34,990 nt of DNA from a virus. Positions 5,342 through 26,397 of this stretch are shown piece by piece. Made by a program: the position numbers and the translations under genes. The first letter of the stretch is position 1. Every line of letters begins with the position of its first letter. The notes beneath the pieces are model-generated. The model saw nothing but the letters and a program-made list of their open reading frames with translations, did no database searches and was not told the DNA's origin. The stretch covers positions 1-34,990 of IMG/VR virus record IMGVR_UViG_3300023272_000085, one strand, 5' to 3'.

Positions 5342-5889
5342 GGCCTGCTGACCATCCACACGTGAACCTCTTGGCTGTCGACGTCTTCGATCGGTCCACT
5401 GGTCGCGATCATCCCATTGGGTCCGTAGGCCACCAAGAAGCCATCACCGATCCTGACGATGTGACCGCCAGCGAAAGCCGCACAAGCGAGCTTGAGCTTC
5501 TCGGGCCCGGTCGAGTCGACGGCGAATACCGTCACACCAAGCCGGATTGAATCCGCCGTGAGGTCATATTCGGTTGGCGGCTCGCCCATGCGGACGCCTA
5601 GTTCGCGGACGCCATGCTGGTTGATGCCGTCCACACCACCGATCGCCAGCAAGTGCTCGGGGCTGGGCACGAAAGGCAGGGGCGTACCCTTGCGCGCAAA
5701 CGAAGCCACAAGGGCCGCCGAGACGTGGTGCTCGAACGTGTCACCCAAGAGCTCCGTGTACGGCCTCAGATCGATCGCCTCCGGGATGTGGTCGCTCAAG
5801 CCAAGCTGGCCCACGGAGGGGTATTCAGCGCTTTTGGGCGGCTCGGACTTCGGAGAGGTCTTGGGCTTGGTCTTCTTTTCGGTGGTCAT
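5338..5889 (-). CDS. Hypothetical protein, 183 aa
   Basis: An N-terminal Lys/Pro-rich tail (residues about 1-20) is followed by a soluble, mixed alpha/beta domain: GVDGINQHGVRELGVRMGEP, SIRLGVTVFAVDSTG and CAAFAGGHIVRIGDGF. It starts and ends with ATGA overlaps, so it is co-translated with its neighbours, downstream of the tail fibre genes. No family recognised. Virion-associated or tail-fibre assembly roles are possible from position only. Confidence 0.6.
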   Translation of the reverse strand: MTTEKKTKPKTSPKSEPPKSAEYPSVGQLGLSDHIPEAIDLRPYTELLGDTFEHHVSAALVASFARKGTPLPFVPSPEHLLAIGGVDGINQHGVRELGVRMGEPPTEYDLTADSIRLGVTVFAVDSTGPEKLKLACAAFAGGHIVRIGDGFLVAYGPNGMIATSGPIEDVDSQEVHVWMVSRP

Positions 5890-6200
5890 TCTTGCTTCAC
5901 TCGCAATCCAAGGGTCTGCTGGTACACATCACCCAGCGCCGTCGAGGCCGTGCACCTCAGCCAATAGAGGCCCGTCACACCGCCGATCGGCCTGAAGAAC
6001 ACAGCGCCGGCCGAGTCGATGTATCCGGGCCGCACGTTCTCCAGGGCGAGAGCGGACCCCGTGATGATGGTCGTGCTGCTCTCGTCAACGATGTCGATCA
6101 CGCCGGTTGTGATTTCGTCGAGGTCGTTGAGCGCGAACCTGAACGCGAAGGTCTTTGCGTCGTCCGGATCGTGAACTTGCGGAAAACACGAAAAGGTCAT
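5886..6200 (-). CDS. Small beta-rich virion-type protein, 104 aa
   Basis: The sequence has the alternating pattern of an immunoglobulin-like or fibre-tip beta sandwich: FAFRFALNDLDEITTGVIDI, STTIITGSALALENV, and VTGLYWLRCTASTALGDV ending LGLRVKQE. Small proteins of this kind often follow tail fibre genes and describe an 'expected change' beta domain in phage neck or fibre proteins. Overlaps of four bases (ATGA) join it to the LamG fibre gene upstream and the 183-aa gene downstream. The fold is inferred from pattern alone. Confidence 0.55.
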   Translation of the reverse strand: MTFSCFPQVHDPDDAKTFAFRFALNDLDEITTGVIDIVDESSTTIITGSALALENVRPGYIDSAGAVFFRPIGGVTGLYWLRCTASTALGDVYQQTLGLRVKQE

Positions 6201-8047
6201 GCTGCCTCACTGAGCTGGCTGACAAAACGTTTGATGGGTCCGAGCCTCGTCGAGTCCCTGACGTCCTTGACGGGTCCACGTCTTCCAGGAGGCACGGGCG
6301 GATTGCCGGGCTTGATGAGCTCGACCGTGAGGCTCTCGCTGATCGCCACAGCATCGACGGCTGCCCGGATGTAGTCGGCTTCAGTCAGCAGATCGTCGGC
6401 CGCGCTCACGGCGTCGCTGACCGTCACAGCGATGACCGCCGGAAGGACCAGCTCGACCGTGAGCTCGTCCGTGAGCGTTAGGGTGTCGTTGGCGGCTCGC
6501 CCAACGACCAACGCCAGGGTCATGGCATCGAGGACCGAAAGGGCATCGGCGGCCGTCCTCGCCACCTCCAGGCCGGCTGTTGCCGCGTCGGAGGTGGCGA
6601 CCGCGTCCGAACCTGCGCGCAGGTAGTCCGCCGTCCGTAGGAGGGCATCGCTAACCGCCACCGAATCGCTGACCGACACGCTGATCAGGCTCGGGGTGAC
6701 GAGCTGCGCGTCCGTGTCGTCGGTGGCGACAACCGAATCCGTGAGGGCCCGAACGTAGTTGGCCGCCACTGAGAGGGCATCGGTCGTTGAGCCCGCGTCG
6801 GAAAGGGTGCGCCCGTATTCAAGTGAGCTTGATCCACTGTCGGTCGTGGCCGCCGTGTCGCTGGCCGTACGAGCGTACGTGAGCTCAAGCAAGCTTGAAT
6901 CGGTGGCCGTAGCGGCGTCTGAACCGGTGCGGCCGTAAGTGGCCTCAAGGACGATTGAGTCCGCCGCGGTATTCGTGTCACTGACCGCTACATTGAGAAT
7001 GCTGGGGGTGACGACCTGTGCGTCGATCGAATCTGAGGTGACGATCGACTCAGCGAGGATGCGGCCGTAGGTGGCCGCCCGGACGATTGAGTCCGACGTG
7101 CTGACCGAATCACTGGCAGCTCTCCCGTATTCGATCCCAAGGGTCAGCGAATCCGTGGTCGAGGCGGTGTCAGTTCCCGAGCGGCCGAACTCGGCACCCC
7201 TGGAGGCAGCATCGCCGACCGAAGCTGTATCGCCAAGGGCCCGGCCGAAGCCGACACTCCTCGAAGTGGCGTCGGTGACCGAGCAGGCATCGGCCGGGCT
7301 GTAGAGGTCCCATTCCGCCGCATCAGCGAGCCCAACCGTATCAGGTCCTACCTCGACATCGACGGTCGTCCCTCCGCTCGACTCGGCCGGCTCGGTTGCC
7401 GCATCCTGGAGGGTGCCGGTCACCGTCCAGTTGCCGGCCGTGCCGCCATTGGTCGCCGCTGTCGATGCACTCAGCAGCCGCAACCAATGCAGGGTCGTCC
7501 CTGCCGGAACGCTATTCAGGTTCTGGGACGCAGCCAAAAGTGCCGCGTCCGAAAGGTCCGCTTCTTGGACGAAGTAGTGACGGGTATCGGAGTCGACGGC
7601 GTGTTCACCAAACTGGTCGGACCCAATGTGCAACCCGCCGCCCACGGCTAGGATCTGGGTCGAGAGCGAAAGCGTGGTGGTCGTCCACGTGGTGTCGCCC
7701 TCCCGCCTAATGCTGATCCTGTAGTCGCCCGATCCGGGAGCGTGACGCCAAGCAACGCATGCCCAATCGGTATCGGAACCTGTCAGGATAGGGGTCTGCT
7801 GAAGTTCAGCGGCCCCAAGACGGAACGCCACGGCCGCCAAGGTCGTGTTGCCACTGATCCCGACGTCGAGCAGCAATCCCTCGGACGATCCGCCGGTGGT
7901 GCCCAGGCCAAGAATAATGTTCTCGGCACCCCCGCCGTACTCACCCGAGTTGAGCTTAATCCAGCTGCAAATGGTGAACGCGCCCGTCATCGTGGGCAAC
8001 GTGGTGGTGCTGAGAAAGTCCCCGTTCGTATGGCGAACGCTGGTCAT
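6197..8047 (-). CDS. LamG-like tail fibre or adhesin with 16 short repeats
   Basis: A 616-aa protein. Residues about 1-215 form a LamG/concanavalin-like lectin domain (FTICSWIKLNSGEYGGG, VAWRHAPGSGDYRISIRR, LHIGSDQF), typical of carbohydrate-binding fibre proteins. Residues about 252-580 are 16 tandem repeats with a 20-residue period, built on SD-x-x-x-x-x-D and an aromatic-x-R ending (for example SDSVSTSDSIVRAATYGRIL), with longer 24-residue units interspersed. The last 36 residues are Pro/Arg-rich. No signal peptide. It lies between a jelly-roll-like gene and small virion genes, so a receptor-binding distal fibre is the best interpretation. Confidence 0.75.
   Translation of the reverse strand: MTSVRHTNGDFLSTTTLPTMTGAFTICSWIKLNSGEYGGGAENIILGLGTTGGSSEGLLLDVGISGNTTLAAVAFRLGAAELQQTPILTGSDTDWACVAWRHAPGSGDYRISIRREGDTTWTTTTLSLSTQILAVGGGLHIGSDQFGEHAVDSDTRHYFVQEADLSDAALLAASQNLNSVPAGTTLHWLRLLSASTAATNGGTAGNWTVTGTLQDAATEPAESSGGTTVDVEVGPDTVGLADAAEWDLYSPADACSVTDATSRSVGFGRALGDTASVGDAASRGAEFGRSGTDTASTTDSLTLGIEYGRAASDSVSTSDSIVRAATYGRILAESIVTSDSIDAQVVTPSILNVAVSDTNTAADSIVLEATYGRTGSDAATATDSSLLELTYARTASDTAATTDSGSSSLEYGRTLSDAGSTTDALSVAANYVRALTDSVVATDDTDAQLVTPSLISVSVSDSVAVSDALLRTADYLRAGSDAVATSDAATAGLEVARTAADALSVLDAMTLALVVGRAANDTLTLTDELTVELVLPAVIAVTVSDAVSAADDLLTEADYIRAAVDAVAISESLTVELIKPGNPPVPPGRRGPVKDVRDSTRLGPIKRFVSQLSEAA
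6308..7294 (-). repeat. Protein-level tandem repeat, 16 units of 20 or 24 residues
   Basis: Units begin with (S/T/G/A)D and most end with YGR or a variant (FGR, YAR, YVR, YLR, VGR) plus two residues. Twelve units are 20 residues. Units 5, 10 and 14 are 24 residues and end in hydrophobic VTPS(I/L)xxVxV-like strands; unit 16 is cut short. The DNA is not exactly repeated, so the array is old and under selection at protein level. Confidence 0.8.
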
Positions 8048-8751
8048 GGCAGCTCCACGGCGGTGAAGTCAGTGAGGGCCCACTGGTTGAGCGAGCCGCT
8101 ACCCGACGTCTTGAAGGCGCCAATTCCTGGACACCCTGTGGTCCACATCGCTCCGCCTGAGTTGCGAGTGTCGGCGGCACTTCCGCTGCCATCCCCACCG
8201 TTGACCGCTACGAAGCCGTTGCCGTCATTTCGGTTCACAGCAACAGAGATCACATTGCCGATGCAACGAGTCCTGAACTTGTACCCACTGCTGACCCCAC
8301 CGTTCACGTAATACGTGCCGGTGGCGATCATGTACGTGAAACTAGGGAGCGTCGTATCGCCATCCCACGAGATAATGTCGACGTAGCTGCCGTCGTGGGC
8401 AACGTTGATCTCGTAGCAATGAACGATGCTCGACGAATCGGTGCACCGATGGAGGTGCTCGATCTCCATGATGCCGGAGGTCGACCCCTTGAAGACGGTG
8501 GTGACGACCTCGGTGTTGGCCGCCCAAACCCCGTTCACGTAGGCGTAGCTGTCGTCATACGCTCCGCCCACCTGGGTGCCGTACGCAACGCCCCCAGAGG
8601 TCCGCATGCGGGTGCGGTTCGTATCCCGGCTCGACCAGTTGCCGGACTCCGAGATGGGGTTCTCGGTAAGCCCGAAGCTGGTGCTGTAGCTACGTGGCGC
8701 CACCCAATCGCGTGACGACCGGTGGTTAAGATCAACCTCGATCAGAGCCAT
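8044..8751 (-). CDS. Jelly-roll/LamG-like virion protein
   Basis: I take the ATG at 8751 (MALIEVDL) over a GTG at 8760. The 235-aa product is almost all beta: NWSSRDTNRTRMRTSGG, EVVTTVFKGSTSGIMEIEH, YKFRTRCIGNVISVAVNRN, GCPGIGAFKTSGSGSLNQWA. This is the pattern of a concanavalin-like sandwich, where the last strands describe 'difference in position' display typical of fibre or host glycan-binding proteins. Its stop overlaps the start of the LamG/repeat gene (ATGA). Predicted role: part of the tail fibre or capsid-surface adhesion apparatus. Confidence 0.6.
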   Translation of the reverse strand: MALIEVDLNHRSSRDWVAPRSYSTSFGLTENPISESGNWSSRDTNRTRMRTSGGVAYGTQVGGAYDDSYAYVNGVWAANTEVVTTVFKGSTSGIMEIEHLHRCTDSSSIVHCYEINVAHDGSYVDIISWDGDTTLPSFTYMIATGTYYVNGGVSSGYKFRTRCIGNVISVAVNRNDGNGFVAVNGGDGSGSAADTRNSGGAMWTTGCPGIGAFKTSGSGSLNQWALTDFTAVELP

Positions 8752-8839
8752 CGGACGCACCCCCGCCCTTGCTGTCGATCAGCAGGTCGAACAATGAACC
8801 CTCGAATGTGCGCACCCATCGGGCCCCCGGAATCAGCAA
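8732..8839 (-). CDS. Possible small protein between fibre genes, 35 aa
   Basis: In the 128-base gap 8752-8879 a frame without ATG reads LLIPGARWVRTFEGSLFDLL and then IDSKGGGASDGSDRG before its TGA at 8732, overlapping the next gene by 20 bases. A TTG at 8839 or a GTG at 8815 could start it. The residue make-up is clearly protein-like and the overlap matches the operon style, but the start is weak and a hairpin lies just upstream. Confidence 0.3.
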   Translation of the reverse strand: MLIPGARWVRTFEGSLFDLLIDSKGGGASDGSDRG

Positions 8840-9379: not shown

Positions 9380-12178
9380 TCATGGCGAATAGAAGGCATT
9401 GACGGCCTTCAGCCGCATTCCGGATTGCCCCGTTTCGTCGTTGATCCGCAGCCAAGCAGTCCTGGCGTTCGCGATCGTCAATGGGGTTCCAAGCGTCAAG
9501 ACAAGCGTGTGATCGACCTCGTAAGCGGCTGTATTATTCGTCGCGTCGACGTACGAGCCGGCTAAGCCGGCCGTGGTGTGGGGGTACGGGCTCGTGACGT
9601 ACACTTGGACGAAGGGCATGCCTGCGGGCATGACACCGCCGTGAGTAGCTGCCGGCTCGATCGAAGCCGTAACCATTGTCAGCGCCAACCCTGGATAGAG
9701 AGGTATCGCGATGCCCATCGCGCCACCCACACCGTTTCCGCTGTAGTCATCGCCGATTCCGCCATACCAGCCAGCGGTGCCTAGCAACGGGATGATCGGA
9801 ATGCTGATGCCGTAGTACGCTGCCGCCTGAGCTGCGTTTAGTGCGTCAAGTGCGTCTGAGACAGTCGGACCGGAAACAGTTGCGGATTGATTCGCTACGT
9901 GGTCGCTGCCCTGAGTGTTTGCTCTCTGGGTCAGAGAAAACTCGTCGGCGCCGCCACCCGACGCCACGCAAACCAAGTCGTAGAAAACCCAAAGCGAGTC
10001 AACCTGAGTGCCGCCGGACGGAATGTTTACGTTGGCCCCGCTGCCAGCGAACGTGTGTGTGGTCCCGCCCATAACCACGAACGAGACCTTGTCGCGTGGC
10101 GTGAATATACCAGCCGGCACGGTGATCGCAGAGTTAGCTACCAGCCTGATCAGAGTGTTAACGTCGCTCGCTTGGAGCGTATAGCTGCCAGACTTGCTCT
10201 GAACCGAAGTGTAGCCAATCGGGCCGGTAGCTCCGGTCGCCCCCGTCGGACCAGTGGGTCCCGTTGTGCCGGTTGCCCCGGTAAGACCTGTTGGCCCCGT
10301 CAATCCGGTGGCACCTGTGGGGCCAGTTGGCCCCGTCGCTCCTACGGCACCGTTCGAGCCATTGGTTCCGGTTGCCCCTGTCGGGCCCGTTGTTCCAGTT
10401 GGTCCGGTTGGTCCTGTGAGGCCGATCGGTCCTGTGAGACCGATGGAACCAGTGGCCCCTGTTGCACCCGTCGGTCCTGTGGGGCCGGCCGCTCCGGTGG
10501 CGCCGGTCGGACCCGTTGCGCCAGTAGGTCCCGTAGCTCCGGTGAGATCATAGACAGTGGCCGGCGATGTGTCGCCAACACACGCCACGTCGTACGTTGG
10601 CTGGACGAAGTATTGGTAGGTTGCGTAATTGCGCGTCGGTGACCGCATTGGGGTGACGGCCGCGATCGTAGGCAACAAACCAAAGACCGCTCGCCCGCTC
10701 GCAAAGAAATAGAGCCCGTAACCAGTTGATCCGGTAACGCCCCAGAGCCGCAGCCCAAAACCCTGAGTAAAGATAGAGCCTGGACCAACCGTCAAGCACT
10801 GCACGCAGCGCTCGAACTGCATGCCGTACGATGACGAGCTTCCTGTCCAGTCCAAACTGAGCGAGACTGCGCAGTCATAAAACTGAAGACCCCCGTCGGT
10901 GATGCAATCACCACCGGAGAAATTGATCTTCGTCTTGGAGAAAAGGTAGTTGTTGATTAGGTAATTGCCGCCGAGGAACTCAATGTATCCGCCCGCACAA
11001 AACCACCTACCTTGGCAGCGCAAGAAGCCAGCGTAGGCGTGTACGGACGAGCTAAACCCTCCCGTGCATGCATCAAACAAGACGCTAAATACGTTATCGG
11101 CCCAGCACTCGTACGCGATGTCACCCGCGAAGTTCCTCAGGGTTACTCCCGCGTCGTAGCCGATCGCGCGTACATCGACTGCGCTTAGGGTCGCTGTATT
11201 TGTGTCGACGACGACGACATCACCAGCAGTGAGGTCGCATTGAATGCCACGATTTGCGCCAGCTTTGTGCCAGTGCGTGACGAAGGCATGCTGTGCATCG
11301 CCATCAAGCTCTTGGACGAAAGCAACCGCTCCGACCTGCGAACCCGAGACGCACCGAAGCATCTGGCCAACCACGAACGTTCCAGAGGCCGTGGCGATGC
11401 GTCCGCGAGTTCCGCCTCCGGTCGTTGTCCCGGGCACGGTGTTGGTGACCGAGCTCAACGTGATGTTGGACCCACTCGTAACCGCACCTTGGATCGTCAA
11501 CCGGAAGGCGCCAGCGATTGCGACACGAATCCGATCAGCTCCCGCGTACGTCCCGGCCGCAACGTGGAGGGTGGTTGCCTGACCTAGGGTTCGGGTCGCG
11601 CCATTGGGGCAAAGCCGGTTCGAAAACTCCAACAGAGTTGCCAGTGCAGTCCCGGCTGTTTCCCCATCGTTGTCGTCCGAACCGGTTGCTTGGTTGACGT
11701 ACCAAGCGGATTGAAATGCGAGATTCGGATTGGAGTCGATCGCCCGCCACGTCGTCAGGTCCGGCCCCAAGGAGTAGTAGACCTGCGTCGACTGGCTGTA
11801 GACGACCATCCCCTCGTGGCGGGACTCGATCGGGATTGCATTGCGTGCGGCGTTGTCGGCCACGACCACGAAGTTGCTCTCGGTACCGCCTCCACCTCCG
11901 CCGTCAGCTTGGCCAACTGCGATCACCCTTGCGAGTGACGGCACGGTAGTCCCCGCCGATACGCATCCCGCGCCCCCAACATTGATGAGCCGCACCCGAT
12001 TGACGTCGAGGATGCGATCGATCGTGTAGAACCCACCCCCGGCTACGTAGACCGAGATGTCGAGCGGCATCCAGTTGCTGGAGTCGACGCTGACCACCAC
12101 AGGCTCGCCGATCGTAGGCTGCACGTAAGCGGCCTGCGTCGACGTAAACGCCGTGAGCTGTTGATCGAGGAAGCTCAC
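9380..12178 (-). CDS. Large tail fibre with beta-helix-like shaft and collagen repeat
   Basis: GTG at 12178 overlaps the upstream TGA (GTGA) and gives about 932 residues starting [10 protein letters not shown]. An N-terminal attachment part and a Gly-rich hinge ([12 protein letters not shown]) lead into a stretch of about residues 165-540 with the short turns of a right-handed beta-helix ([39 protein letters not shown]), as in tailspike-type proteins. Residues 547-654 are 36 uninterrupted Gly-X-Y triplets, mostly GPT and GAT. A short beta domain ([15 protein letters not shown]) and a C-terminal domain follow. This is the main host-recognition fibre. Confidence 0.8.
10217..10540 (-). repeat. 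Collagen-like Gly-X-Y repeat, 36 triplets
   Basis: Thirty-six perfect Gly-X-Y triplets without interruption; X is mostly Ala, Pro or Leu and Y is almost always Thr. Threonine-rich collagen repeats are known in phage fibres and spore surface proteins, where they form trimeric rods. The antisense strand carries a misleading open frame of Gly-Pro-Val repeats. Confidence 0.9.
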
Positions 12179-12759
12179 GGGCGCCAAGCGTAGTCGATGA
12201 CATCCCAAGATCCGTCGTAAGCAATTGTGGCCCCGCGGATGGAGCCGCTGCTGTTTACGATCGTCGCAATGGTGTTGCCCGCTACGTCCTTGATGATGAT
12301 GGCGTTGCTCTGGGGATTAACCAGCTTCATGACCCATTGACGATCAGCCGATCCGGATGGCGGGGTCTCAACTTGCCAGATGACGCCGGTTCCCACTGGA
12401 CTGCCGAATCCGCCCGGGTAGACGTGCTCAGCGTAATAGGGGATTACCTTCGTGCCAGACGATGAGCAGTCCGGTGAAGAGACCCAATGCCGGCCCCTGA
12501 CGGCGCCAGCTAGGTGCACGTCGCCGCCGTCGGTCGGTGAATCAATGACCGTACCGTTCAGGGTGAGCGTCTTGGTGGTCGGGGTTGTGATCGCAGCGTC
12601 ACCGTTCGCGAAGTCGTAAACGGGCTTGAGCGCTCTCGTCCGATTGGCGACCGATTGAAGCGCTGGCACCAAGGAGGCGGCCGTCTCATCGTCGAGCCCG
12701 TCCTGCGGGACAATGACCTGCGGATCGAACGTAGCGGCTTCGGTGAGCGGAGTAGCCAT
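12175..12759 (-). CDS. Tail/baseplate-associated protein upstream of the fibre
   Basis: The ATG at 12759 is preceded by the start-associated motif (12766-12778) and a G-run. The 194-aa protein begins with a helical segment ([26 protein letters not shown]) of a type often found at the N-termini of phage tail-fibre connectors, followed by a beta domain ending [20 protein letters not shown], a motif typical of fibre proteins that describe surface values in tail fibre tips. GTGA coupling joins it to the large fibre gene. Likely links baseplate and fibre. Confidence 0.6.
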
Positions 12760-12786: not shown

Positions 12787-13527
12787 TCAGATGCCGATCG
12801 GGATGCGGATCACTTTGCCGCCAGCGCCCCATTTGCCGCCGCCCGACCCCCACTTCCTTGGCGGGTAGCCCCAAACCCGACGACCGGGGCTTAGTAGGAC
12901 GATCACGCCCCTACAATGCGCGGCGTTCCATTCGGTCGGCACGAGCACGAGGTCACGAACTTGAGCGGGTGAAAGGCTCCCGGGAGCGACGCCCCAAAGA
13001 TTACCGTTGCCGCCCCAATTGGCTCCAGACGCGCCCCACAAGCCCAGAGGATTGATGGCAGTGGGCCAGTGATAGATCAACGTCCAGCGAGCCCATTGAG
13101 GCAGGTTGATGGAGCCGAAGTCCACATCGTCTCTGGTGATCGTGCCATCCGTCGCGAGCGAATAGCGCCGCCCGGTTGGATAGATGAGCTCGATCGGAAA
13201 CGGGGCTTGGGCAAAGTAGGCGTGAAGCTGAGCCAAGAGCGAGTACGGATTGCCTCGCGTCAGATGATCGTCGAGCCAGCGCCGTAGCCTCGGGGCGTAC
13301 ACGGAATCGGGCTCGACACTGCCGCGCCGGATCTTCCGGTCGCTACCTAGAAGCGCTAGAGCGTCTGGCCTCGCTTCGTTGGGAAATCGAGCTTTGACCG
13401 CCTCGGTGGTGGCATCGCCCAAAGCATCAAACTGGATCCCGAGGGCGTTGGCGATCTTTTGCGCTAGGCCGTTGCGGAGCCACCACGGCAAGATTTGGAG
13501 CAGTGTATCGCGGAAGGTGGTGAGCAT
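12787..13527 (-). CDS. Phage tail protein I-like (baseplate wedge)
   Basis: The 246-aa product follows baseplate J directly (stop and start share one base), the standard place of the P2 gpI/Mu gp48-like wedge protein. Early residues form a hydrophobic helix pair (LLQILPWWLRNGLAQKIANA), then DALALLGSDRKIRRG and ESVYAPRLRRWLDDHLTRGNPY-like segments common to this group. The C-terminus is rich in Trp and Gly (GLWGASGANWGGNGNLWG). It probably bridges baseplate wedge and fibres. Confidence 0.65.
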   Translation of the reverse strand: MLTTFRDTLLQILPWWLRNGLAQKIANALGIQFDALGDATTEAVKARFPNEARPDALALLGSDRKIRRGSVEPDSVYAPRLRRWLDDHLTRGNPYSLLAQLHAYFAQAPFPIELIYPTGRRYSLATDGTITRDDVDFGSINLPQWARWTLIYHWPTAINPLGLWGASGANWGGNGNLWGVAPGSLSPAQVRDLVLVPTEWNAAHCRGVIVLLSPGRRVWGYPPRKWGSGGGKWGAGGKVIRIPIGI

Positions 13528-14726
13528 CAGAGCCCCGGTGGTTTGAGCTGGATGACCGTGCCGTTCACTGCCCCGATGGTCGGCACCTCATCGGGACCTA
13601 GGAGGAAATCGCCGGAAGGTGTCGCGATCTCGACCTTCATGGGCAAAAGCGCAACTCCCTGAGGGGTCACGGCTCCGCCGATCGCGGACTCGATGGCCGA
13701 GAAATAGATCCTGCCGCTCGTGACCCCGATCAGGTTTCCACCGATCGGCTGATTGGCGATGAAGGTCGCGAGGTTGGCTTGGACGACGTCCTTGATCTGC
13801 TGCTCGGTCAGGCCGGACGTGTTGTAGAGCCAAATCGTGTAGGTGATGTCGACCTGCGCCTCGATGGCCGAGAACGTGTTGAGCGTGACGGCGAGCGGAG
13901 CGGCCTTCCGCTGCATGGCGTCATCCACGATGCCCAAAGGGGTCGCGAGGTTTCCGATCGTTCCGTCAACTCCACCATCAGCCTTGCCGAGGTAAACGTT
14001 GACGTTTCCGTACCCGTCGTTCGTGACCCGAACTCGCGTGATACCGAGAGAGCTCCCGTTGGCATCCACGGCCGAACGCGCCACGAAGGCATAGGCATCT
14101 GATGGCCCGTTGGGGCTCAGACTTCCGAGCTTGTCGAGGCAACGCTGACGAATCGAAGGGTCCGATTCCGCGTCGGTTCCGATCGCTGCTGTGTCGTTGG
14201 TGACGGTGACGTTGGGCGAGAGGCCCGCAGTCTGAAACTGGCTGATCTCACCCGGGTACGAGGTGCCAGCCGAGCCGGCCGTGTACGCTTGGACGATTAC
14301 GTCCTCGACGGTCGCGCCGCTGCCGATCGTGACCGACTCGACGTTAAAGTACGCTTGATGGGTGGTCGGGTTCAGGATCTGGAGGTCGCCGGGGTCGAAT
14401 GAATAGACCCCGCCCCCCGAATTCACGAACGTGACGGCAGTGGTGGCAAAGGTGGCGGGGATGCGCTCGACAGCAAAGACCTCCCTAGCGACATTCGTCA
14501 GCCAGTCGCCGGTAGCGGTCGACAGAAAGCCCGATTGAGCCAGCAGGGCCGTGAGGTTGCTGAGCCCCGAGGCGACGACCGCCACACCAGCGATCAGTGT
14601 TCGGACTACGGAGCCGGGCTTCCACGCGGTGGTGGTGACGCCCGTGGCGGCAAGGACGCTGTAGATCGATCGCTTTACGTCATCGACCGAGAGCGGCTTG
14701 GTGAGTTCAGCGAGGGAGAGCGGCAC
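13527..14726 (-). CDS. Baseplate J-like protein
   Basis: It starts with GTG at 14726, right after the start-associated motif. The 399-aa sequence has the baseplate J layout: an N-terminal helical part (KPGSVVRTLIAGVAVVASGL), the 'FLSTATGDWLTNVAREVFAV' segment, the 'AGTSYPGEISQF' turn and the C-terminal 'VDITYTIWL' and 'GGNLIGVTSGRIYFSAIESA' strands. Baseplate J forms the wedge that triggers sheath contraction. Length is normal for P2/Mu-type J. It sits between gp25-like and gpI-like genes, as expected. Confidence 0.85.
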   Translation of the reverse strand: MPLSLAELTKPLSVDDVKRSIYSVLAATGVTTTAWKPGSVVRTLIAGVAVVASGLSNLTALLAQSGFLSTATGDWLTNVAREVFAVERIPATFATTAVTFVNSGGGVYSFDPGDLQILNPTTHQAYFNVESVTIGSGATVEDVIVQAYTAGSAGTSYPGEISQFQTAGLSPNVTVTNDTAAIGTDAESDPSIRQRCLDKLGSLSPNGPSDAYAFVARSAVDANGSSLGITRVRVTNDGYGNVNVYLGKADGGVDGTIGNLATPLGIVDDAMQRKAAPLAVTLNTFSAIEAQVDITYTIWLYNTSGLTEQQIKDVVQANLATFIANQPIGGNLIGVTSGRIYFSAIESAIGGAVTPQGVALLPMKVEIATPSGDFLLGPDEVPTIGAVNGTVIQLKPPGL

Positions 14727-16906: not shown

Positions 16907-17421
16907 TTGGCCAGCTCCTGGAACTGCTTGGTCAGCTGCTCGATCTTTTGGTCGTAAGGGTCCGTGCTCTTGTTGACGGCCGCAGCTTCGGGCTTGGCAA
17001 GCGCGAACTTGGGCTCACGGGTTTCCAAGAACTTGATCGCGATCGTGTAGGCGCCCGTATCGCCGTCTTCCTCAGGCTGACCCACTTCCTCGACACCAAC
17101 GGAGCTGATGTCGAGGAAGTCCAACCACGGATGCCAGATCGACATCGACTTGGGCTTGGTGCCGTTCGGTGGACGAGCGACGAGGGACTGGAATGAACTC
17201 CAGTCAGTCCAGTCTTGAGCGGTGATCAAATGAATGGTCGCGGTAAACTTGCTGATCTCGCGACCTCGATAGACCGTCACGCCACCGGAGAGGCCGTAGC
17301 CGGCTCGGATGTCCCACTTGCGAACGTCAGCCGCGCCGCTGATGACAGCAATGCCCGGCGACTTCTGACCTGCGAGCAAGAAGTAGTCGACCGGTGTGAG
17401 GTACGGATCGTACGCGGCCAT
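16903..17421 (-). CDS. Tail/baseplate connector protein, 172 aa
   Basis: Pattern of a small tail protein located between tape measure and hub in myovirus-like elements: DYFLLAGQKSPGIAVISGAA, DVRKWDIRAGYGLSGG, TIHLITAQDWTDWSSFQSL, then a SIWHPWLDFLDISSVGVEEV strand pair and a VIK-type end. The C-terminus is a charged helix (DQKIEQLTKQFQELAK). It probably joins tail tube to hub. The type is known to me from similar gene clusters, but the family has no settled function name. Confidence 0.6.
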   Translation of the reverse strand: MAAYDPYLTPVDYFLLAGQKSPGIAVISGAADVRKWDIRAGYGLSGGVTVYRGREISKFTATIHLITAQDWTDWSSFQSLVARPPNGTKPKSMSIWHPWLDFLDISSVGVEEVGQPEEDGDTGAYTIAIKFLETREPKFALAKPEAAAVNKSTDPYDQKIEQLTKQFQELAK

Positions 17422-19379
17422 CAGGGCACCACCGCGCCAAGTTCAGATGCCGAACCTGCGAAGATCTTGAAGACCAGATCCTTGAAGGCTTCGGCGTGTG
17501 CCTCGGGGGTGTCCGTTGCCGAATGAAGGTGTACTTCGCCGATGTGGACGGACGGTGCCGATCGAGGTTGTGGTGCCGGAGCTCCGTACGAGCCAAAGAT
17601 CGACGGACCCCTGGCGGGCTGCGCATGGGTGCCCTCGGGAGGGGGCTGGCGTTCTCGGGGTCCGGTCGGTAGCGACACAAGGCTTCGTCCTTCGCTTCGT
17701 CCTCCGAGCTGCCGAGTCGGGAACGAAACCAAGCTCTGAACGGCCCGCCGAACCTCCGGCCTTCCGGCATAAATGCCGCTCGCCACGCCTCTCGGGACCT
17801 CGATGGCGGATCGCATCGCAACCCGAGAGGGTGATGCGATCCCGAGCTTGGCCCGGAACGCCTTCATGGCGGACGTGCCGAGGTTTTCAATCGCCCGGAT
17901 GACCCAAGCGGCACCGCCCTTGATGCCCTCGACCAAGCCTTTGACGATGTTGCCGCCCGCGTCGTACGCCGCTACCGCTAGACTTCCGAGCGCTTTGACG
18001 CCGTAGTACAGGCCGGCCCCGAGCGCGACGATCGCCACGTAGGGGAGCATCAGCAGAGCCGCGACGTTCGCCGCGACTACGCCAACGAGAACGAGGGCTC
18101 CCACCATGCCGTAGAGCGCGATCTTGCCGGCCGTCACGGCTAGGCTCAGCGTGTCGATGTTTTTGAACAGCTTGGTGTCGCCGAACGTGTCGCGGAACCA
18201 GTTCCGAAGTTTGAGGACGACGATCCCGACCTGGAGAGCCGCGATGATCATCCCTTGGAAGAACCGCTTCATGAGCATGGACGCGGGTCCGCTCACTTGA
18301 TCGATCAGCGGGCCGAAGAGACCCTCGATGATCGCCTTGAGGGCTCGACCTGATGCACTGCTTTGGCTGAACAGCTCGGTGATCTTTTGGACGCCGGTCA
18401 GCAGCTTGTCGATCTTCAGGCCCGAGAACAGCATCGCGAAGCTCTCGCGAAGCTTCCGGCTTTGCACATCGAGGCTCAGCAGCTGGGCAGCGGCTATGCC
18501 TCCCAAGCGGGCTTTGACGTCATCGGCCAACGCCCGGACGGAATGACCGGTGAGGCCGGCTGCCAAGGCCATCCCCTTGAAGGCACCAGCGGCGGCTTCG
18601 CCCTGGGTTGCCGCAGTGATGGCCACACCCTGGAGCGCGGCCTGGAGGTTCCCGCCTCGCAGACCCGTGCGGTACAGGTCCTCGGCGTATCCCACCACTT
18701 GCTCACGCGAGAGCGCCACGGAGGCCGATACGTTGTCGATCGTGCTCTGGAGAAAGCTGGCTTTATCGGCCACCGGTCGGAAGCCAGTGGCCAGCGACAG
18801 GTAGCTGTAGCGGAGCTTGCCTAGCGCTTCGAGGTGCAACAGCTCATTGCGTCGAGCGTTGGCGACACCGACGCCGTACTTGAGCAAAGCAGCGGTGCCG
18901 ACACCAGCGGCGGCCGTGACGGCCAAGATGGCAGCCGCGACAGCAACAAGTCCCCCGGCCATCGCTCCGCCACCGAGGATTGAGCTCAGGCCGCCAAAGC
19001 TGGACGTGAGTTTCCCGAGAGGGCCCGGTGCTGATTGCACGACCTCCGTGAGGCTCTTGAGGCCGGCCCCCGCTTCCTTGCCGCCCTTGCCGATGTCGCG
19101 GAAGGTGCCGCCCATTTGCACGTAGCTCTGCGTCGTGGATGCGATCGTCGCCTTTTGGGCGCTGATCCGATCCTTGAGATCGCGTGCGACCTGGATGTTG
19201 ACCGCGGACCCGCCTTGAAGGTTCCGCAGTGCCTTTTGCATCTCCCGGAGCGCGGCTGTGTCGCCCTGGATCTTGGTTTGCAGATCCTGGAGGGCACGCG
19301 CTTGATCGCCCGCGAACTGGCCGGCGTTACCGTCCAGTTCCAGGCTAAATCTTGCTACTGCGTCACTCCCGCTGGCCAT
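17421..19379 (-). CDS. Tail tape measure protein
   Basis: At 652 aa it is the longest protein of the tail assembly block. The N-terminus is a long helix (ARALQDLQTKIQGDTAALRE), then a hydrophobic helix region (residues about 135-170, GGLVAVAAAILAVTAAAGVG) and a second group near 390-470 (YGMVGALVLVGVVAANVAAL). The C-terminus carries a 'FRAKLGIASPSRVAMRSAIE' segment, a motif typical of tape measure ends. Its ATG overlaps the TAA of the chaperone extension (TAATG). The short length predicts a short tail. Confidence 0.85.
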   Translation of the reverse strand: MASGSDAVARFSLELDGNAGQFAGDQARALQDLQTKIQGDTAALREMQKALRNLQGGSAVNIQVARDLKDRISAQKATIASTTQSYVQMGGTFRDIGKGGKEAGAGLKSLTEVVQSAPGPLGKLTSSFGGLSSILGGGAMAGGLVAVAAAILAVTAAAGVGTAALLKYGVGVANARRNELLHLEALGKLRYSYLSLATGFRPVADKASFLQSTIDNVSASVALSREQVVGYAEDLYRTGLRGGNLQAALQGVAITAATQGEAAAGAFKGMALAAGLTGHSVRALADDVKARLGGIAAAQLLSLDVQSRKLRESFAMLFSGLKIDKLLTGVQKITELFSQSSASGRALKAIIEGLFGPLIDQVSGPASMLMKRFFQGMIIAALQVGIVVLKLRNWFRDTFGDTKLFKNIDTLSLAVTAGKIALYGMVGALVLVGVVAANVAALLMLPYVAIVALGAGLYYGVKALGSLAVAAYDAGGNIVKGLVEGIKGGAAWVIRAIENLGTSAMKAFRAKLGIASPSRVAMRSAIEVPRGVASGIYAGRPEVRRAVQSLVSFPTRQLGGRSEGRSLVSLPTGPRERQPPPEGTHAQPARGPSIFGSYGAPAPQPRSAPSVHIGEVHLHSATDTPEAHAEAFKDLVFKIFAGSASELGAVVP

Positions 19380-19998
19380 TACTTCGAGTCCTTCGGCGGT
19401 GTCAGCAACCGTCTGATCCGGGTGAGCTCCGCGAGTCCCTCAGCGATCAAAAGTGCTGCGGTCGTGACCCTGATGATCTCGACGTCCTCTTCCGGTTCCC
19501 GCCCGAGTAGACTGGTGAGGACGTCAGCCGCGATCCCGAGGTCGTCTTTGGCCTCCCGACGCAGCTCGACTATTTTCCCGAGAGCCCGTCCTTGCGAACC
19601 CCCGCCAAGTGAGCGATGGCGTTCGCACAGCCGAACAAGATACCGGGCTGCTCGCGGAGCATTTCCTCGAACTCCGGTATCGTCGGGTACTTCACGCAAG
19701 GCGTGACCATCTGACGAACGTTCTCGACCTTGAAGTCTTGCTCCTGAAGGCGGTTGAACGCGGCCGGAGCTGAGCGAAGCAGGATCACTGCGCCCAAGTC
19801 GGTGTCGACCTTGGCAAGCTTCTTCGCCCCGTATTGCTCGACGAGCTTTTCGAGTGCCTGCTCTTCCTTGAGAGCCCGCTCTTCGGCTTCGAGCTCTTCA
19901 GCGAGTGCCTTGTCATCGTCGACTTCGGCGGCTTTTGCCTTCAAGGCTGAGCGAGCCGCTTTTGCGGCTGCCAAACGCTTCTTGATCTCTTCGCTCAC
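19379..19998 (-). CDS. Tail assembly chaperone GT fusion made by -1 frameshift
   Basis: A second frame (to 19379) overlaps the end of the 142-aa gene in the -1 register. Slipping at G-GGA-AAA (19573-19579) right before the first frame's TAG continues as GKIVELRREAKDDLGIAADV and ends KDSK, giving about 206 residues. This reproduces the G/GT arrangement of tailed phages, where the long form bridges tape measure and tail tube. It lies directly before the tape measure gene, as expected. Confidence 0.8.
19570..19998 (-). CDS. Tail assembly chaperone G, 142 aa
   Basis: The frame-0 product starts with a charged helix (KKRLAAAKAARSALKAKAAE, then EELEAEERALKEEQALEKL) and continues with a compact domain (TDLGAVILLRSAPAAFNRLQ, MVTPCVKYPTIPEFEEML). 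It overlaps the tail tube gene by ATGA and ends in the slippery site. Tail chaperones of this type keep the tape measure soluble during assembly and are not in the mature virion. Confidence 0.8.
   Translation of the reverse strand: MSEEIKKRLAAAKAARSALKAKAAEVDDDKALAEELEAEERALKEEQALEKLVEQYGAKKLAKVDTDLGAVILLRSAPAAFNRLQEQDFKVENVRQMVTPCVKYPTIPEFEEMLREQPGILFGCANAIAHLAGVRKDGLSGK
19573..19579 (-). other. Programmed -1 frameshift slippery heptamer
   Basis: Sense G GGA AAA immediately followed by TAG in frame 0 fits the X-XXY-YYZ rule exactly, with the new register matching the downstream open frame. Confidence 0.85.
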
Positions 19999-20474
19999 GG
20001 GCTACCTGCCGATCCGTCAAACTGGGTTTGACCGTTGCGACGGATCGACATGGCATCGATCTCGATCTCTTCCTGGAGGGGATCCGGGTTCTCTTCCTCG
20101 CTGGAGGAGGTGCCGACGTACACGCAACGCTCGATGTCGACGTACATTTCCGGCTCGAAGTTCTCGATGTACTGAGTGTTGATGTGGAACTCGTATTCGC
20201 CGTACGAGTTACCGTCGGGCGACTTGGCGGCGAGCTTGGCCCGGACCGCGTGCATCGTGCTCTTGGGCCCCTTGAGCTTCACGGGCTCGATGCTGTACTT
20301 GCCGCGGGTCCTGGCCCTGGGTGCGTGATGCTTACCCATGCCGTAATGCTTGGTGCGTTCCCGCTTGTCGGAGTACGAGATCGATGTGAAACCCACGAAG
20401 ATCTCGTCGTCAATCCGGAGGGTGATAGAACCCCACGAAACGATGTTGCCGTTGATCCTGATTTGGTCAGCCAT
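19995..20474 (-). CDS. Tail tube protein
   Basis: A 159-aa protein placed directly after the sheath and before the chaperones. It begins INGNIVSWGSITLRIDDEIF and GFTSISYSDKRERTKHYGMG, followed by ARTRGKYSIEPVKLKGPKST and a C-terminal EEEIEIDAMSIRRNG-like strand. This matches the tail tube proteins of contractile-tailed phages that follow the sheath gene. It would form the inner rigid tube through which DNA passes. Confidence 0.75.
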   Translation of the reverse strand: MADQIRINGNIVSWGSITLRIDDEIFVGFTSISYSDKRERTKHYGMGKHHAPRARTRGKYSIEPVKLKGPKSTMHAVRAKLAAKSPDGNSYGEYEFHINTQYIENFEPEMYVDIERCVYVGTSSSEEENPDPLQEEIEIDAMSIRRNGQTQFDGSAGSP

Positions 20475-20489
20475 TTAGCCCCCCGGCCT

Positions 20490-21938
20490 TCAAACTGCTT
20501 GCACCGACGGGTTGCTGAACCCGGTGTTGACGATGATCTTTTTCGGATAGAAGAGCGGGACCAAGCCCTCTTGAACCAAGAGGTCGTTGCCGCTCAGCAA
20601 GTTGGTTGTGCGATTGATTTTCACGAAAGCGTTCGGGCCGAACGCGCCGCCCGATGCCATTGGCTTGGCCATAATCGCCCCTCGGATCGCGGCGTTGCAG
20701 GCCGCTTCCATCGCAACCGCCTCGCTCTCAAGGATGAAGCCAGTCGTGGTGTCGACTTTGATGGGCTTTGACAGACGGCGCTGGAAGTAGATCCGTGTCG
20801 TCCGCTTAAGGAGGTTCATGATCCTGCGGTGCTGGAACCACTGGAAGTCCGATCCCGACGACGAGAACAGACGCGAGTTGCAGACGTAGATGCCTTGCTC
20901 GCCGTCCCACGTACGGAGCACCGTGAAGCGGCTGTCGTCGAGACCCGGAGTGACTAACTCGTCGTGCTCGTCCGGGTTGCCGTTCGCGTCCTTGATGATG
21001 ACTCCGGGCAGGTTCCCGACGTCGATCGCCGCGATGTCGACCTCATGGCTGACCGTTGCCGCCAACGGGGCTACGGCGAACGAGATCGGCCGCTTGTAGA
21101 GCCTGCCGCTTACGGCTGATGAAACCTTGGCGGAAGCCGCCGTCAGCATGCCGAAGGTGGTGCTGAGCGAGCTAAAAATGCCGTCGAGAGCCGTCTTGTA
21201 GGCGGACTCGGATTCACCGATCGTTGGGATGCGCGTATGACCGATCCACGCCTTCTCGGGCATCCCTGCGAAGCTCGTACCGATAGCGGCGAAGCTTGTG
21301 GCGTCGATCGGACCGACAATGGAGACGACATCCCAGGGGATGGTTCCGAGCTTCAGAGCCGTGAGTGCCGGGGTGAGATCACCAGCCGCCCAATTGGGTG
21401 CGATGGTCCGGAAGCTGGCGGTGTCGCCGGCCACGAGGGTGCCGGTTCCGAGCGCGAACCCGATACCGCCGGAGCCAGCGATCGTGATGCTGGTCGCCAC
21501 ACCTAGAGCGGTGACGGCCGACCAAGAACGCCCACCATCGAGGCTCGTTTGGTACGTGATGCCCGTCGTGCCGACCGTTCCGCCTGCAACGACCCTGAGC
21601 ACAACCTCGTAATCGTCGTTTGCGGTCGTGTCGGCACCGACCGTCACAGCGCTTGAGCCCGTGACGCCCGTCGTGACGATCACTGACTCGGTGGCCGCTA
21701 CGGAAGCGGTCGCTCGCACGAGCAGGACCGGCTGGTCATAGGCTGCGATAAAGTAGCAGGCGGCCTCTACGAGCGGGCCAGCGCCGTAGTTTGAGATCAC
21801 GTCTTGCGTGCGTGAAAACGCCGCTGGGGTAGCGATGGGTCCGGAGTCCGAGACCCCGACAATCGCGAAATACGAGGAGCCGCTCGGCAGTACGCCTAGC
21901 GCACCATCGAGCTCGTTGATTTGGACACTAGGCAGCAT
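20490..21938 (-). CDS. Contractile tail sheath protein
   Basis: The ATG at 21938 (MLPSVQINELDG) is preceded by CGGAGG nine bases upstream and by the start-associated motif at 21963-21975; an upstream extension to 21965 has no support. At 482 aa it has sheath features: the N-terminal Q-I-N-E strand, the 'ISNYGAGPLVEAACYFI' segment, and the C-terminal domain 'LLKRTTRIYFQRRLSKP', 'AACNAAIRGAIMAKPMASGG' and 'VKINRTTNLLSGNDL'. Sheath contraction drives the tube through the host envelope. Confidence 0.85.
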   Translation of the reverse strand: MLPSVQINELDGALGVLPSGSSYFAIVGVSDSGPIATPAAFSRTQDVISNYGAGPLVEAACYFIAAYDQPVLLVRATASVAATESVIVTTGVTGSSAVTVGADTTANDDYEVVLRVVAGGTVGTTGITYQTSLDGGRSWSAVTALGVATSITIAGSGGIGFALGTGTLVAGDTASFRTIAPNWAAGDLTPALTALKLGTIPWDVVSIVGPIDATSFAAIGTSFAGMPEKAWIGHTRIPTIGESESAYKTALDGIFSSLSTTFGMLTAASAKVSSAVSGRLYKRPISFAVAPLAATVSHEVDIAAIDVGNLPGVIIKDANGNPDEHDELVTPGLDDSRFTVLRTWDGEQGIYVCNSRLFSSSGSDFQWFQHRRIMNLLKRTTRIYFQRRLSKPIKVDTTTGFILESEAVAMEAACNAAIRGAIMAKPMASGGAFGPNAFVKINRTTNLLSGNDLLVQEGLVPLFYPKKIIVNTGFSNPSVQAV

Positions 21939-21962
21939 CGAGGATGACCTCCGGGTCAACCT

Positions 21963-21975
21963 CACTAGAGTGCGA
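21963..21975 (-). promoter_or_regulatory. Start-associated motif, copy 3 (sheath)
   Basis: Sense TCGCACTCTAGTG (one base from consensus), 24 bases before the sheath ATG. Here the G-run is replaced by a separate CGGAGG ribosome site, so the motif itself is not simply that site. Confidence 0.6.
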
Positions 21976-21990
21976 GACTCGATAACTGCC

Positions 21991-22560
21991 TTAAGGGTCG
22001 GGGACGATCTCTACCGGTGGATCGCTTTCAGTCGAGTTGTCCGGTCCAACAATGAAGCCAGTTGCTTCACCCGCTGTGCCGACCTCAGCGAACCTAAACG
22101 GCGCGTCCGGGATCACCGCTTGAATGGCCCCAACGACCTTGAGCGCGGCACCAAAGCGTCCCTCTTTGCGCGTCATGTCCCACGCTTGGGACTTGATCGC
22201 GAACGTGCCGACAGCTGCCAAGTAGACGGCACGGAGCCACGCATCGTAGTTCAAGCGGGCTTGATGGTACTGAGCACGATCGTCTTCCTTGGCTTGCGGG
22301 TCAGCTCCGACGATCAAGCACGTGAACAGCTCGTTGAGCATCGCCAACGGGCGAGCCGGGAGGCCGCCGGGATAGCGAGGGCCGCCGAGGTCACCGAGTG
22401 CGCTGGAGCCATCGCTGGGCGTCCAAATGATCCGGTTCGGATTCCCGCCTTGCCGTGGAGGCTCCTTCCAACCGAACGTGTTTTCGATCAGCGTCTTCTC
22501 GTCGGCGAACCGTTGGACGACCTTGTCGAACAGGTTTTCGAGCGCGAAGATGACGGCCAT
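21991..22560 (-). CDS. Tail completion/terminator-like protein
   Basis: A 189-aa protein between the morphogenesis gene and the sheath. It starts with FALENLFDKVVQRFADEKTL and contains IENTFGWKEPPRQGGNPN, PLAMLNELFTCLIVGAD, and a helix pair around RLNYDAWLRAVYLAAVGTF. Gene order places it where neck or tail terminator proteins are found in Mu-like and P2-like phages. The fold is not certain from sequence. Confidence 0.55.
   Translation of the reverse strand: MAVIFALENLFDKVVQRFADEKTLIENTFGWKEPPRQGGNPNRIIWTPSDGSSALGDLGGPRYPGGLPARPLAMLNELFTCLIVGADPQAKEDDRAQYHQARLNYDAWLRAVYLAAVGTFAIKSQAWDMTRKEGRFGAALKVVGAIQAVIPDAPFRFAEVGTAGEATGFIVGPDNSTESDPPVEIVPDP
22252..22263. repeat. Palindrome-like CAAGCGGGCTTG
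   Basis: Leftmost of the seven CAAGCNGGCTTG sites, inside the tail completion gene (codons for QARLN). Confidence 0.4.
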
Positions 22561-22970
22561 CAGCGCCCCTTCGTCATGTGGGCGTTGAAGCGCTTGATCG
22601 ACACGGCCTTGACGGCTTCGGTCATGGGTTGGGGAAGCCGTGAACTCGGGAGGATCTGCCGGCGGACGTTGCCTCGGGCGGCCCCAAGGTGATGTAGCGC
22701 GACGTGGCCTTCGAGCTTGGCTTGGACCACTGAGCTGATGGCTCTAACCGTGAGGGCCGCCCCTGCGTTGGTAAGTGGCTTCTTGCCGTCCTTGGTCAGC
22801 TGCCAAGGCTTACCCTCAGGGTCCACGCCGGCGCTGATGTTCTTGCGGATCTCGGCGTCGAGGACGGGCGCTACGTCTTTGGCGATCTCGGAGGGAAGAG
22901 CTCCGAGCGTGTTGACCTTGTCGATCCAACCCTGCATTTCGGCGAACGCGGCCCCGTTATCCCGAGCCAT
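22560..22970 (-). CDS. Virion morphogenesis / gp10-like neck protein
   Basis: I use the ATG at 22970 (MARDNGAAFAEM), which has GAGGA five bases upstream; the longer frame to 23159 lies in the upstream gene. The 136-aa sequence has ISAGVDPEGKPWQLTKDGKKP, a pattern shared by Mu gpG-like and HK97-gp10-like morphogenesis proteins (usually G-x-D-P-x-G-x-x-W). It joins head completion and tail attachment. The start overlaps the upstream connector gene by 14 bases. Confidence 0.65.
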   Translation of the reverse strand: MARDNGAAFAEMQGWIDKVNTLGALPSEIAKDVAPVLDAEIRKNISAGVDPEGKPWQLTKDGKKPLTNAGAALTVRAISSVVQAKLEGHVALHHLGAARGNVRRQILPSSRLPQPMTEAVKAVSIKRFNAHMTKGR

Positions 22971-23442
22971 TGCGATCCTCTTGGCGTCCGATCGCCTCTT
23001 GCTGATCCATCCACACGTACGGGCTGGACTCCGTGTAGGCCAACGGCGCGCCACGAGTGATGCCCTGACCGCCGGGAGCGTCCTGCCTGAGCGGGAGCTC
23101 ATACAAGCCATCCTTGGCATTGGCCGCCTCGGCGAGTTCGTCGACCGCTGCCTTGGCATCGTCTTGGACGGCTACGATTTGGGCGTCGGTATTGTCGACG
23201 CCACGCTTCAAGTAGATCTTGGGTGTGACAAGCCTGGCCAACCACCCTTGAACGACGATCGGCGGTGAGTCGACGTCGAACGGTGTCGCGTACCTCTTGG
23301 CCAGTCTGGAGTCGATGTAGCCGCTCCAAAATGCGAGCTGGCCATCGACCCACCCGGGTTGCTGAGTCTCGATGTAGTCGACGTATTCGCTCGGGCAAAT
23401 CGCCAAGTCGGTGAACGTTTCGACCGTGAGATATGCGGCCAT
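22957..23442 (-). CDS. Head-tail connector, DUF1320/Mu gp36-like
   Basis: A 161-aa protein beginning MAAYLTVETFTDLAICP with WVDGQLAFWSGYIDSRLAKRY, then PFDVDSPPIVVQGWLARLVT, the layout of the Mu gp36-like head completion protein (a helical adaptor with a conserved 'D-x-R-L-x-x-R-Y' helix). It lies right after the capsid gene, separated by a hairpin. The C-terminus is a charged linker. Confidence 0.7.
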   Translation of the reverse strand: MAAYLTVETFTDLAICPSEYVDYIETQQPGWVDGQLAFWSGYIDSRLAKRYATPFDVDSPPIVVQGWLARLVTPKIYLKRGVDNTDAQIVAVQDDAKAAVDELAEAANAKDGLYELPLRQDAPGGQGITRGAPLAYTESSPYVWMDQQEAIGRQEDRNGSG

Positions 23443-23461
23443 TCAGAACCCCCAAAGACGA

Positions 23462-23483
23462 AAGGGCACCGTGAGGCGCCCTT
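23462..23483 (-). terminator. Hairpin after the major capsid gene
   Basis: Sense AAGGGCGCC and GGTGCCCTT pair over nine positions (one G-U) around a TCAC loop, 27 bases after the capsid stop; TCGTCTTT follows. This is a plausible partial terminator that would raise capsid mRNA over the genes downstream. Confidence 0.55.
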
Positions 23484-23510
23484 CAATCCTGCTTGACCAA
23501 CCCGCTAGGG

Positions 23511-25611: not shown

Positions 25612-26397
25612 TGATGGGGTCTCCGTCGTCTGCACTGGAGTGCGAGACGCGGTGATCCGTTCGGTGAACGCCGAAAAAGACTCGACTGAGTCCGCAAGCC
25701 CGACCCCGATGGCGTTGGCGCCCACGAAGACGGCGGCCTGATAGGCGGCTACCGTCTCGGGCGTTAGACCCCTTCGCTCAGCTACGAGTGCGAAGAACAC
25801 AGCCGCCGTTTGGTCGACCGTCGCTTGCATGGCCTCAAGGACCGAGTCGGTCGTCCCAGCGTGCGGGTTTCCGTCGGCCTTCCGGGCTCCGCTCTTGATC
25901 ACCGAGTAGGAGAGGCCCATCGCGCCATCGAGCCGTGTGGCGTCGACCAACATGGCGATGACGCCGATGGACCCGATGACAGCCGTATCGGAGATGGAGA
26001 TCTCGTCGGCCGCGCACGCCAGGGCGTAGGCGGCTGAGCAGCAAGCGGCGTCCGAGTGAGCTACGAGGCGCTTGCCGGCAGCCGTGGCGATCTGCCGGAT
26101 TTCCCTACTGGTATCGAAGTTTCCGAAGACATCGCCACCGGGCGAGTTGATCTTGAGCACCACCGTCGTGATGCCGGGAGCCGCACATGCGGCGCGCACC
26201 TCATCGACGATCTGGCGGTAGCTTTGGAAGTGCGCGTCGGCTCCGTGAACGAGCGGCCCGCTGATCTCGACACACGCCACAGAAGGGGAGAGCATGCAGA
26301 GCTCGCCCGCTTTCGGCGCTGCTTGGTAATCGAGGCCGTAAGCCTGTTGCTGGATCGCGACGATCCCCCGAGGGGCGTACGCCCGTAACTCGCTCAT
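25015..26397 (-). CDS. Head maturation protease (S49) with scaffold-like C-terminus
   Basis: A 460-aa protein. Residues about 1-230 are an S49 (SppA/ClpP-like) protease: [13 protein letters not shown] (84-96), the nucleophile segment [12 protein letters not shown] with S121, the strand [15 protein letters not shown] and the [16 protein letters not shown] segment with candidate catalytic Lys. Residues about 263-460 are charged and helical ([40 protein letters not shown]), as in phage scaffolds. An internal in-frame ATG at 25611 would release this part separately. The start overlaps the portal stop (ATGA). Confidence 0.8.
25633..25645 (-). promoter_or_regulatory. Start-associated motif, copy 4 (inside protease gene)
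   Basis: Sense TCGCACTCCAGTG inside the coding sequence (S-R-T-P-V), 21 bases before the internal ATG. Flanks GTCT and AGAC extend the inverted repeat here. Confidence 0.6.

Follow-up and report, generated by a model that had tools for sequence, protein, structure and literature searches.

Gene organization and repeat layout at the locus

The window, our term for the entire stretch of DNA analyzed here, corresponds to a virus record of 34,990 bases (IMGVR_UViG_3300023272_000085) from a contractile-tail phage. PHROGs matches define a baseplate wedge/J-like protein (13527-14726), a tape measure (17421-19379), a tail sheath (20490-21965), a major head protein (23511-24554), a portal (26394-27773), and a large terminase (27799-29433); the named phages nearest by their baseplate protein are remote, at about 30% identity (Meiothermus, Thermus, and Myxococcus). 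On the minus strand at 6197..8047 lies an open reading frame for a 616-residue protein that combines a LamG-like domain with a tandem repeat, herein the SD repeat; the gene overlaps each of its same-strand neighbors by four bases. Downstream, a 104-residue gene product (5886..6200, minus strand) gives a weak match to Gp77 (Pfam PF23148, E = 0.034, below the cut-off) and is a possible, weakly indicated Gp77-type fiber-tail adaptor; upstream, a gene at 8044..8760 (minus strand) encodes 238 residues. Judged from this gene neighborhood, the 616-residue protein is probably a component of the virion. A second fiber of the same phage, encoded at 9380-12208 (minus strand), contains a collagen-like G-x-T-G-P-T-G stretch (Pfam Collagen, E = 1.1e-15).

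The N-terminal domain (residues 1 to about 230; 7358..8047, minus strand) is predicted to adopt a LamG/ConA-like jelly-roll fold. AlphaFold2 models residues 20-130 with pLDDT 65-92, and the top Protein Data Bank (PDB) matches in Foldseek are neurexin LNS and laminin LG domains (neurexin LNS2, 6pnq; E = 4.7e-4, prob 1.00). In VIA-align, galectin and laminin-G-type jelly rolls match with Z scores as high as 8.1, with several ConA-like families tied, and homologs of the domain are found in the loci L006 and L007. The predicted jelly roll is common to phage LamG/Laminin_G_3 proteins, but the window domain differs from them in having no sequence match to PF13385 (Laminin_G_3). One relative, L054, has a clear PF13385 domain ahead of its own SD array.

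The main array (residues 252-583; 6299..7294, minus strand) comprises 16 units, of which 13 have 20 residues and three have 24, and it runs without slippage over 332 residues. Both the 20-residue period and the placement of the 24-residue units in the 5th, 10th, and 14th slots had been proposed in a previous sequence-only reading and are borne out. All on the minus strand, the long units are AESIVTSDSIDAQVVTPSILNVAV (residues 332-355; 6983..7054), TDSVVATDDTDAQLVTPSLISVSV (436-459; 6671..6742), and NDTLTLTDELTVELVLPAVIAVTV (520-543; 6419..6490). The array that this reading placed at 6308-7294 is thus real, but its lower limit truncates the last unit, and a further unit precedes its start: DTVGLADAAEWDLYSP (residues 235-251; 7295..7345, minus strand), a 17-residue first unit of a W-D-x-Y type also present in L002, L036, and L072. 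The last unit, VDAVAISESLTVELIKPGNPPVPP (residues 564-587; 6287..6358, minus strand; 13/20 identities in L002), resembles the long unit NDTLTLTDELTVELVLPAVIAVTV and continues as a basic tail at the C terminus, RRGPVxDxRDSTRLGPIKRF... (6197..6286, minus strand), which is conserved and near-identical in L002. With this last unit counted as the long type, the runs of short units number 4, 4, 3, and 1, each closed by a long-type unit.

Within the 616-residue protein the unit follows the motif [S]-D-x5-D-x7-Y-x-R. Over 17 laid-out 20-residue frames, the aspartates at positions 2 and 8 are each conserved in 15, the arginine at position 18 in 12, and an aromatic Y/F at position 16 in 10. Amino-acid autocorrelation at lags of 20, 84, and 104 reaches 0.30, 0.31, and 0.29, respectively, and none of 1000 shuffles exceeds 0.187. 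Tandem Repeats Finder detects no DNA-level repeat in the array region; either protein-level selection has therefore maintained the period, or it is so old that the copies have diverged in their DNA. The array is rich in A, S, T, and D and strongly acidic, with a net charge of -31 over its 332 residues.

A family of SD repeats in viral and cellular proteins

The repeat is no peculiarity of this fiber: roughly a hundred further viral proteins carry SD repeats. A DNA pattern requiring D2, D8, and R18 in three consecutive units at 20-residue spacing matched at least 120 viral stretches and 118 stretches in bacterial and archaeal genomes. After profile iteration, real arrays (≥5 units) were found in 99 of 120 viral stretches among the matches listed and in eight genome stretches, some of the stretches counted sharing a contig. 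The genome members are actinomycetes (Actinomadura, Dactylosporangium, Peterkaempfera, Cellulosimicrobium, and metagenome-assembled genomes) and the archaeon Nitrosotalea devanaterra. In the latter, L236 (LN890280.1, 87-7289) encodes a 2401-residue protein that combines LamG, NHL repeats, and an SD array of great regularity.

Among the matches listed, 112 loci with at least five units yield 1857 distinct units, with the consensus [SAT]-D-[ST]-[VLIA]-[GTSA]-[LVI]-[TS]-D-[SAT]-[AVL]-x-R-x-[LAV]-x-[FLY]-x-R-[TS]-x, a 20-residue core that was picked by a pattern with that very spacing. The window protein carries the tandem unit by which we define the family, [SAT]-D-[ST]-h-x-h-[TS]-D...R-[TS]-x with a modal period of 20. 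About three-quarters of successive unit starts are exactly 20 residues apart, a spacing that the search pattern favors, and the next most frequent spacings are 21, 18, 22, and 24. Unit lengths vary from 17 to 25; residues 1 to 8 stay constant, and changes in length fall in the remainder.

As the search pattern fixed three columns, the other 17 were tested separately. With D2, D8, and R18 omitted and a model built from the window and L002 only, 88 of 103 other proteins exceed the 95th percentile of nulls made by permuting columns. A profile from the same two proteins matched all ten family records, with E values as low as 1e-41, and not one of ten controls (chance matches to the DNA pattern). 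The likeness across proteins may reflect shared ancestry, or a simple repeat reached by convergence. Structural genes (tail-fiber, sheath, portal, major head, or tape-measure) lie near the arrays of L127, L101, L059, L102, and L015. L014, a member of less biased sequence, led to diverged SD-like arrays in WIF21959.1 of Shewanella phage Y11 and AZF89921.1 of Methanosarcina virus MetMV, each annotated as "hypothetical protein"; by eye, an apparently shared C-terminal domain follows the array in each. The full protein and its repeats gave no tblastn match to INPHARED phages, probably because BLAST masks low-complexity sequence.

Searches of Pfam, NCBIfam, and PDB sequences with the window protein and members of the family bear out the earlier statement that no named repeat has this layout. 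The window protein matches no Pfam family at E ≤ 1, including collagen, adenovirus shaft, and phage fiber repeat families, and has no meaningful match in NCBIfam or among PDB sequences. For 59 members, Pfam returned scattered single matches to unrelated families and none to a phage fiber repeat; these matches were dismissed as compositional. PDB matches to designed helical repeats (DHR14) were also judged compositional, because the SD repeat has an odd/even alternation and many β-branched residues. In PHROGs, 17 of the 59 members match phrog_12240 and five match phrog_23524, both of unknown function; the window protein itself matches no PHROG at E ≤ 0.001. The two PHROGs contain the SD repeat without naming it, and the matches to them exclude the LamG head. 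Our literature searches, of limited coverage and hence weak as evidence, returned no description of the repeat.

The window array is thus one member of a common, unnamed phage repeat rather than a one-off. Sampled viral stretches that contain the SD repeat number at least about a hundred, and actinomycete contigs and an ammonia-oxidizing archaeon carry it too; it has neither a named family model nor a solved structure. It marks a gap in annotation, the genes that carry it being labeled "hypothetical protein" at present.

Whole-unit variation, alternative shafts, and the spacing of long units

The sequence-only reading had proposed comparing unit number among relatives. The sole ortholog found with the block profile, L002 (IMGVR_UViG_3300012988_000021), is full length (619 residues), about 47% identical end to end, and shares the LamG domain, the plan of the array, and, with few differences, the C-terminal tail. 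The flanking genes also correspond in order, a 238/270-residue gene lying upstream and a 104-residue gene downstream. L002 has one 20-residue unit fewer in the second block (a gap of exactly 20) and extra repeat units near the N-terminal end (a 23-residue gap). As exactly one 20-residue unit is missing, the number of repeats varies by whole units.

LamG homologs show that the domain can be followed by other sequences. L006 is 53% identical in the LamG domain and carries behind it an unrelated repeat (S-T-P-x-A...G-A-E) with an exact 20-residue period, giving autocorrelation peaks at 20, 40, 60, 80, 100, and 120. Since L006 was found through its LamG domain and not through its period, the agreement at 20 residues counts as an independent observation, of one case. 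In L007/L008 the LamG domain stands alone and the shaft is absent; directly after the shaftless LamG gene, L007:5704-6570 has the look of a patatin-like phospholipase (GGATKGAYQVG, GVSVGA), named by eye. Repeats of the type in L006 (x-T-P-x-A ... G-A-x; herein TP; L006:4995-7502) were sought with a pattern that has the 20-residue period built in, and ~10 further viral proteins matched; TP-type loci include L309, L311, L313, L325, L336, L339, L340, L342, and L349.

The long units of the window, L127, L036, and L072 have lost Y-x-R and have a hydrophobic end strand instead, in agreement with the hydrophobic strand that the sequence-only reading saw in the window. Of the higher-order pattern proposed there, the slots of the long units hold, but the regularity of their spacing is not significant in the window protein alone (P = 0.16). 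In L031, one of 16 arrays tested, 21-residue units occur at spacings of 4, 4, 3, 4, 4, 3, 4, 4, 7, and 3 units (P = 0.0006). The L031 record, G011 (IMGVR_UViG_3300046469_000011), has a 2737-residue open frame at 17531-24049 (minus strand) in which most of the listed stretch matches the SD repeat and a 21-residue unit recurs at every third or fourth position. Long units are nearly evenly spaced in L127, L002, and L106 and irregularly placed in most members.

Short units that occupy equivalent slots in different blocks share 7.6 identities of 20, vs 7.75 otherwise; the blocks in the window are therefore not recent block duplications, and an origin of the 4+1 pattern by block duplication was rejected as unsupported. 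The 20/24 hierarchy might then be incidental, with long units placed randomly and serving no periodic function. To this reading we give somewhat less than an even chance: the window spacing falls short of significance, same-slot units are no more alike than others, and placement is irregular in most members, but the spacing in L031, the near-even arrays of three other members, and the hydrophobic replacement of Y-x-R common to long units of four proteins all speak against it. Long joint units are thus a feature of the SD family, evenly spaced in some members; the regularity in the window is suggestive only.

Structure of the repeat and the proposed stalk

A new β shaft had been suggested for the array, and the evidence divides: the residue pattern fits β-strands, but AlphaFold2 monomer models have low confidence. 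Odd positions of the unit are small and even positions are D, hydrophobic, or R, an alternation reached in 0 of 2000 column permutations for the family and in 1 of 2000 for the window. This is the dyad pattern of a β-strand and supports β-strands independently of any model. In the full-length AlphaFold2 model the repeats have pLDDT of about 35-69; the first block (59-69) shows two strands per unit and the rest is poor. Residues 252-459 alone, modeled with an in-register alignment of 72 rows, give pLDDT 31 and no secondary structure. AlphaFold2 tends to over-predict β-solenoids for perfect repeats (PMC11795689), so its failure on the SD array is not an artifact of that kind; the failure would be compatible with an intertwined oligomer or a flexible chain. 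Fold searches list no match for the repeat part, which is uninformative given the low confidence of the model; the BFVD match list is headed by Sphingobium phage Lacusarx.

Comparison of units adds a second line of evidence. Mean identity between units within a protein is 0.40 at a distance of one unit and 0.37 at 12, and 0.25 between proteins. The within-protein likeness sits in the D-x5-D segment whatever the distance, which points to a constraint that the units have in common, such as stacking as equal rungs would impose, and not to recent local duplication. Mean-field couplings link the same position in neighboring units at positions 2-10; they were dropped as evidence for contacts in view of the homogeneity within arrays. 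A Kyte-Doolittle moment analysis placed Asp and Arg on the hydrophobic face and was for that reason uninformative.

We consider it probable that the array is a widespread, unnamed SD repeat forming an extended, mainly β stalk in a tail-associated virion protein, with the LamG domain at its N terminus and the basic tail at its C terminus. The SD repeat itself, its family, its unit-wise changes in length, and its pairing with LamG and other domains are observed directly; the place in the virion, the stalk function, the β fold, and the role of the long units as joints are what we infer. Each unit would pair a conserved D-x5-D segment with a second, less constant one that terminates in Y/F-x-R. 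Gain or loss of whole units would set the length of the stalk, and hence its reach; the long units, with a hydrophobic strand in place of Y-x-R, could act as joints, bends, or register breaks; and the stalk would keep the LamG domain away from the baseplate. Phage fibers are, as a general rule, trimeric, and from this rule comes our guess that the array might be a homotrimer. If this reading is right, the protein would resemble the trimeric shafts of phages and adenoviruses (triple β-spiral, triple β-helix, and collagen) in having a long repetitive shaft that runs from a head domain to an attachment end and whose length is set by the number of units; it would differ from them in its 20-residue unit with D-x5-D and Y-x-R and in having no Pfam shaft match.

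Two other accounts of the array have to be weighed against a β stalk. It could be a flexible, largely unfolded acidic linker that merely tethers the LamG domain. Staphylococcal MSCRAMM stalks (ClfA, SdrC, and SdrD) are Ser/Asp-rich and join a binding domain to the surface, and eight SD relatives match Ser-Asp MSCRAMM or serine-rich models in NCBIfam. The A/S/T/D-rich, acidic composition and the missing fold in the model of the isolated array would suit such a linker, yet it would need neither an exact 20-residue period, nor invariant D2, D8, and R18, nor an odd/even alternation, nor a within-protein homogeneity that peaks at defined positions. The ClfA/Sdr matches look compositional, moreover, and the window segment has none; MSCRAMM stalks are runs of SD dipeptides, whereas the SD repeat has Asp at two fixed positions per 20 residues with hydrophobics and Arg between them. 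We therefore regard a flexible linker as unlikely.

Rather less probable still is a monomeric β-solenoid or β-roll with one coil per 20-residue unit, in which ladders of D2 and D8 would bind a metal such as calcium. The two invariant aspartates in each unit, the pair of strands that the full-length model predicts for a unit, and the couplings between neighboring units all suit such a coil, but the couplings may merely reflect homogenized arrays, and no confident monomer model emerged despite the 72-row alignment and the reported solenoid bias of AlphaFold2. Unit lengths of 17 to 25 also argue against a regular coil, as does the absence from the array, read directly in translation, of the GGxGxD motif of the RTX calcium β-roll.

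A wider proposal extends the extended β stalk to the family as a whole: the SD repeat would be a new fibrous β fold with a 20-residue rung, serving bacterial and archaeal phages as a general stalk; the TP type of L006 would be interchangeable with it through the same shaft geometry; and the quasi-regular long units would be joints. We hold this only tentatively and think it, on balance, doubtful. Stalk repeats govern the length and flexibility of receptor-binding fibers, and a true β shaft would be a simple, countable ruler of 20 residues per rung, with natural swaps of the shaft behind a constant head domain.

A separate observation concerns a contig of the viral collection, L278 (IMGVR_UViG_3300024300_000015), which carries from position 1727 to about 4600 a CRISPR-like array of 47 copies with a 61-nt period, repeat CGGTTCATCCCCACGGGCGTGGGGAAC, and a type I-E look.
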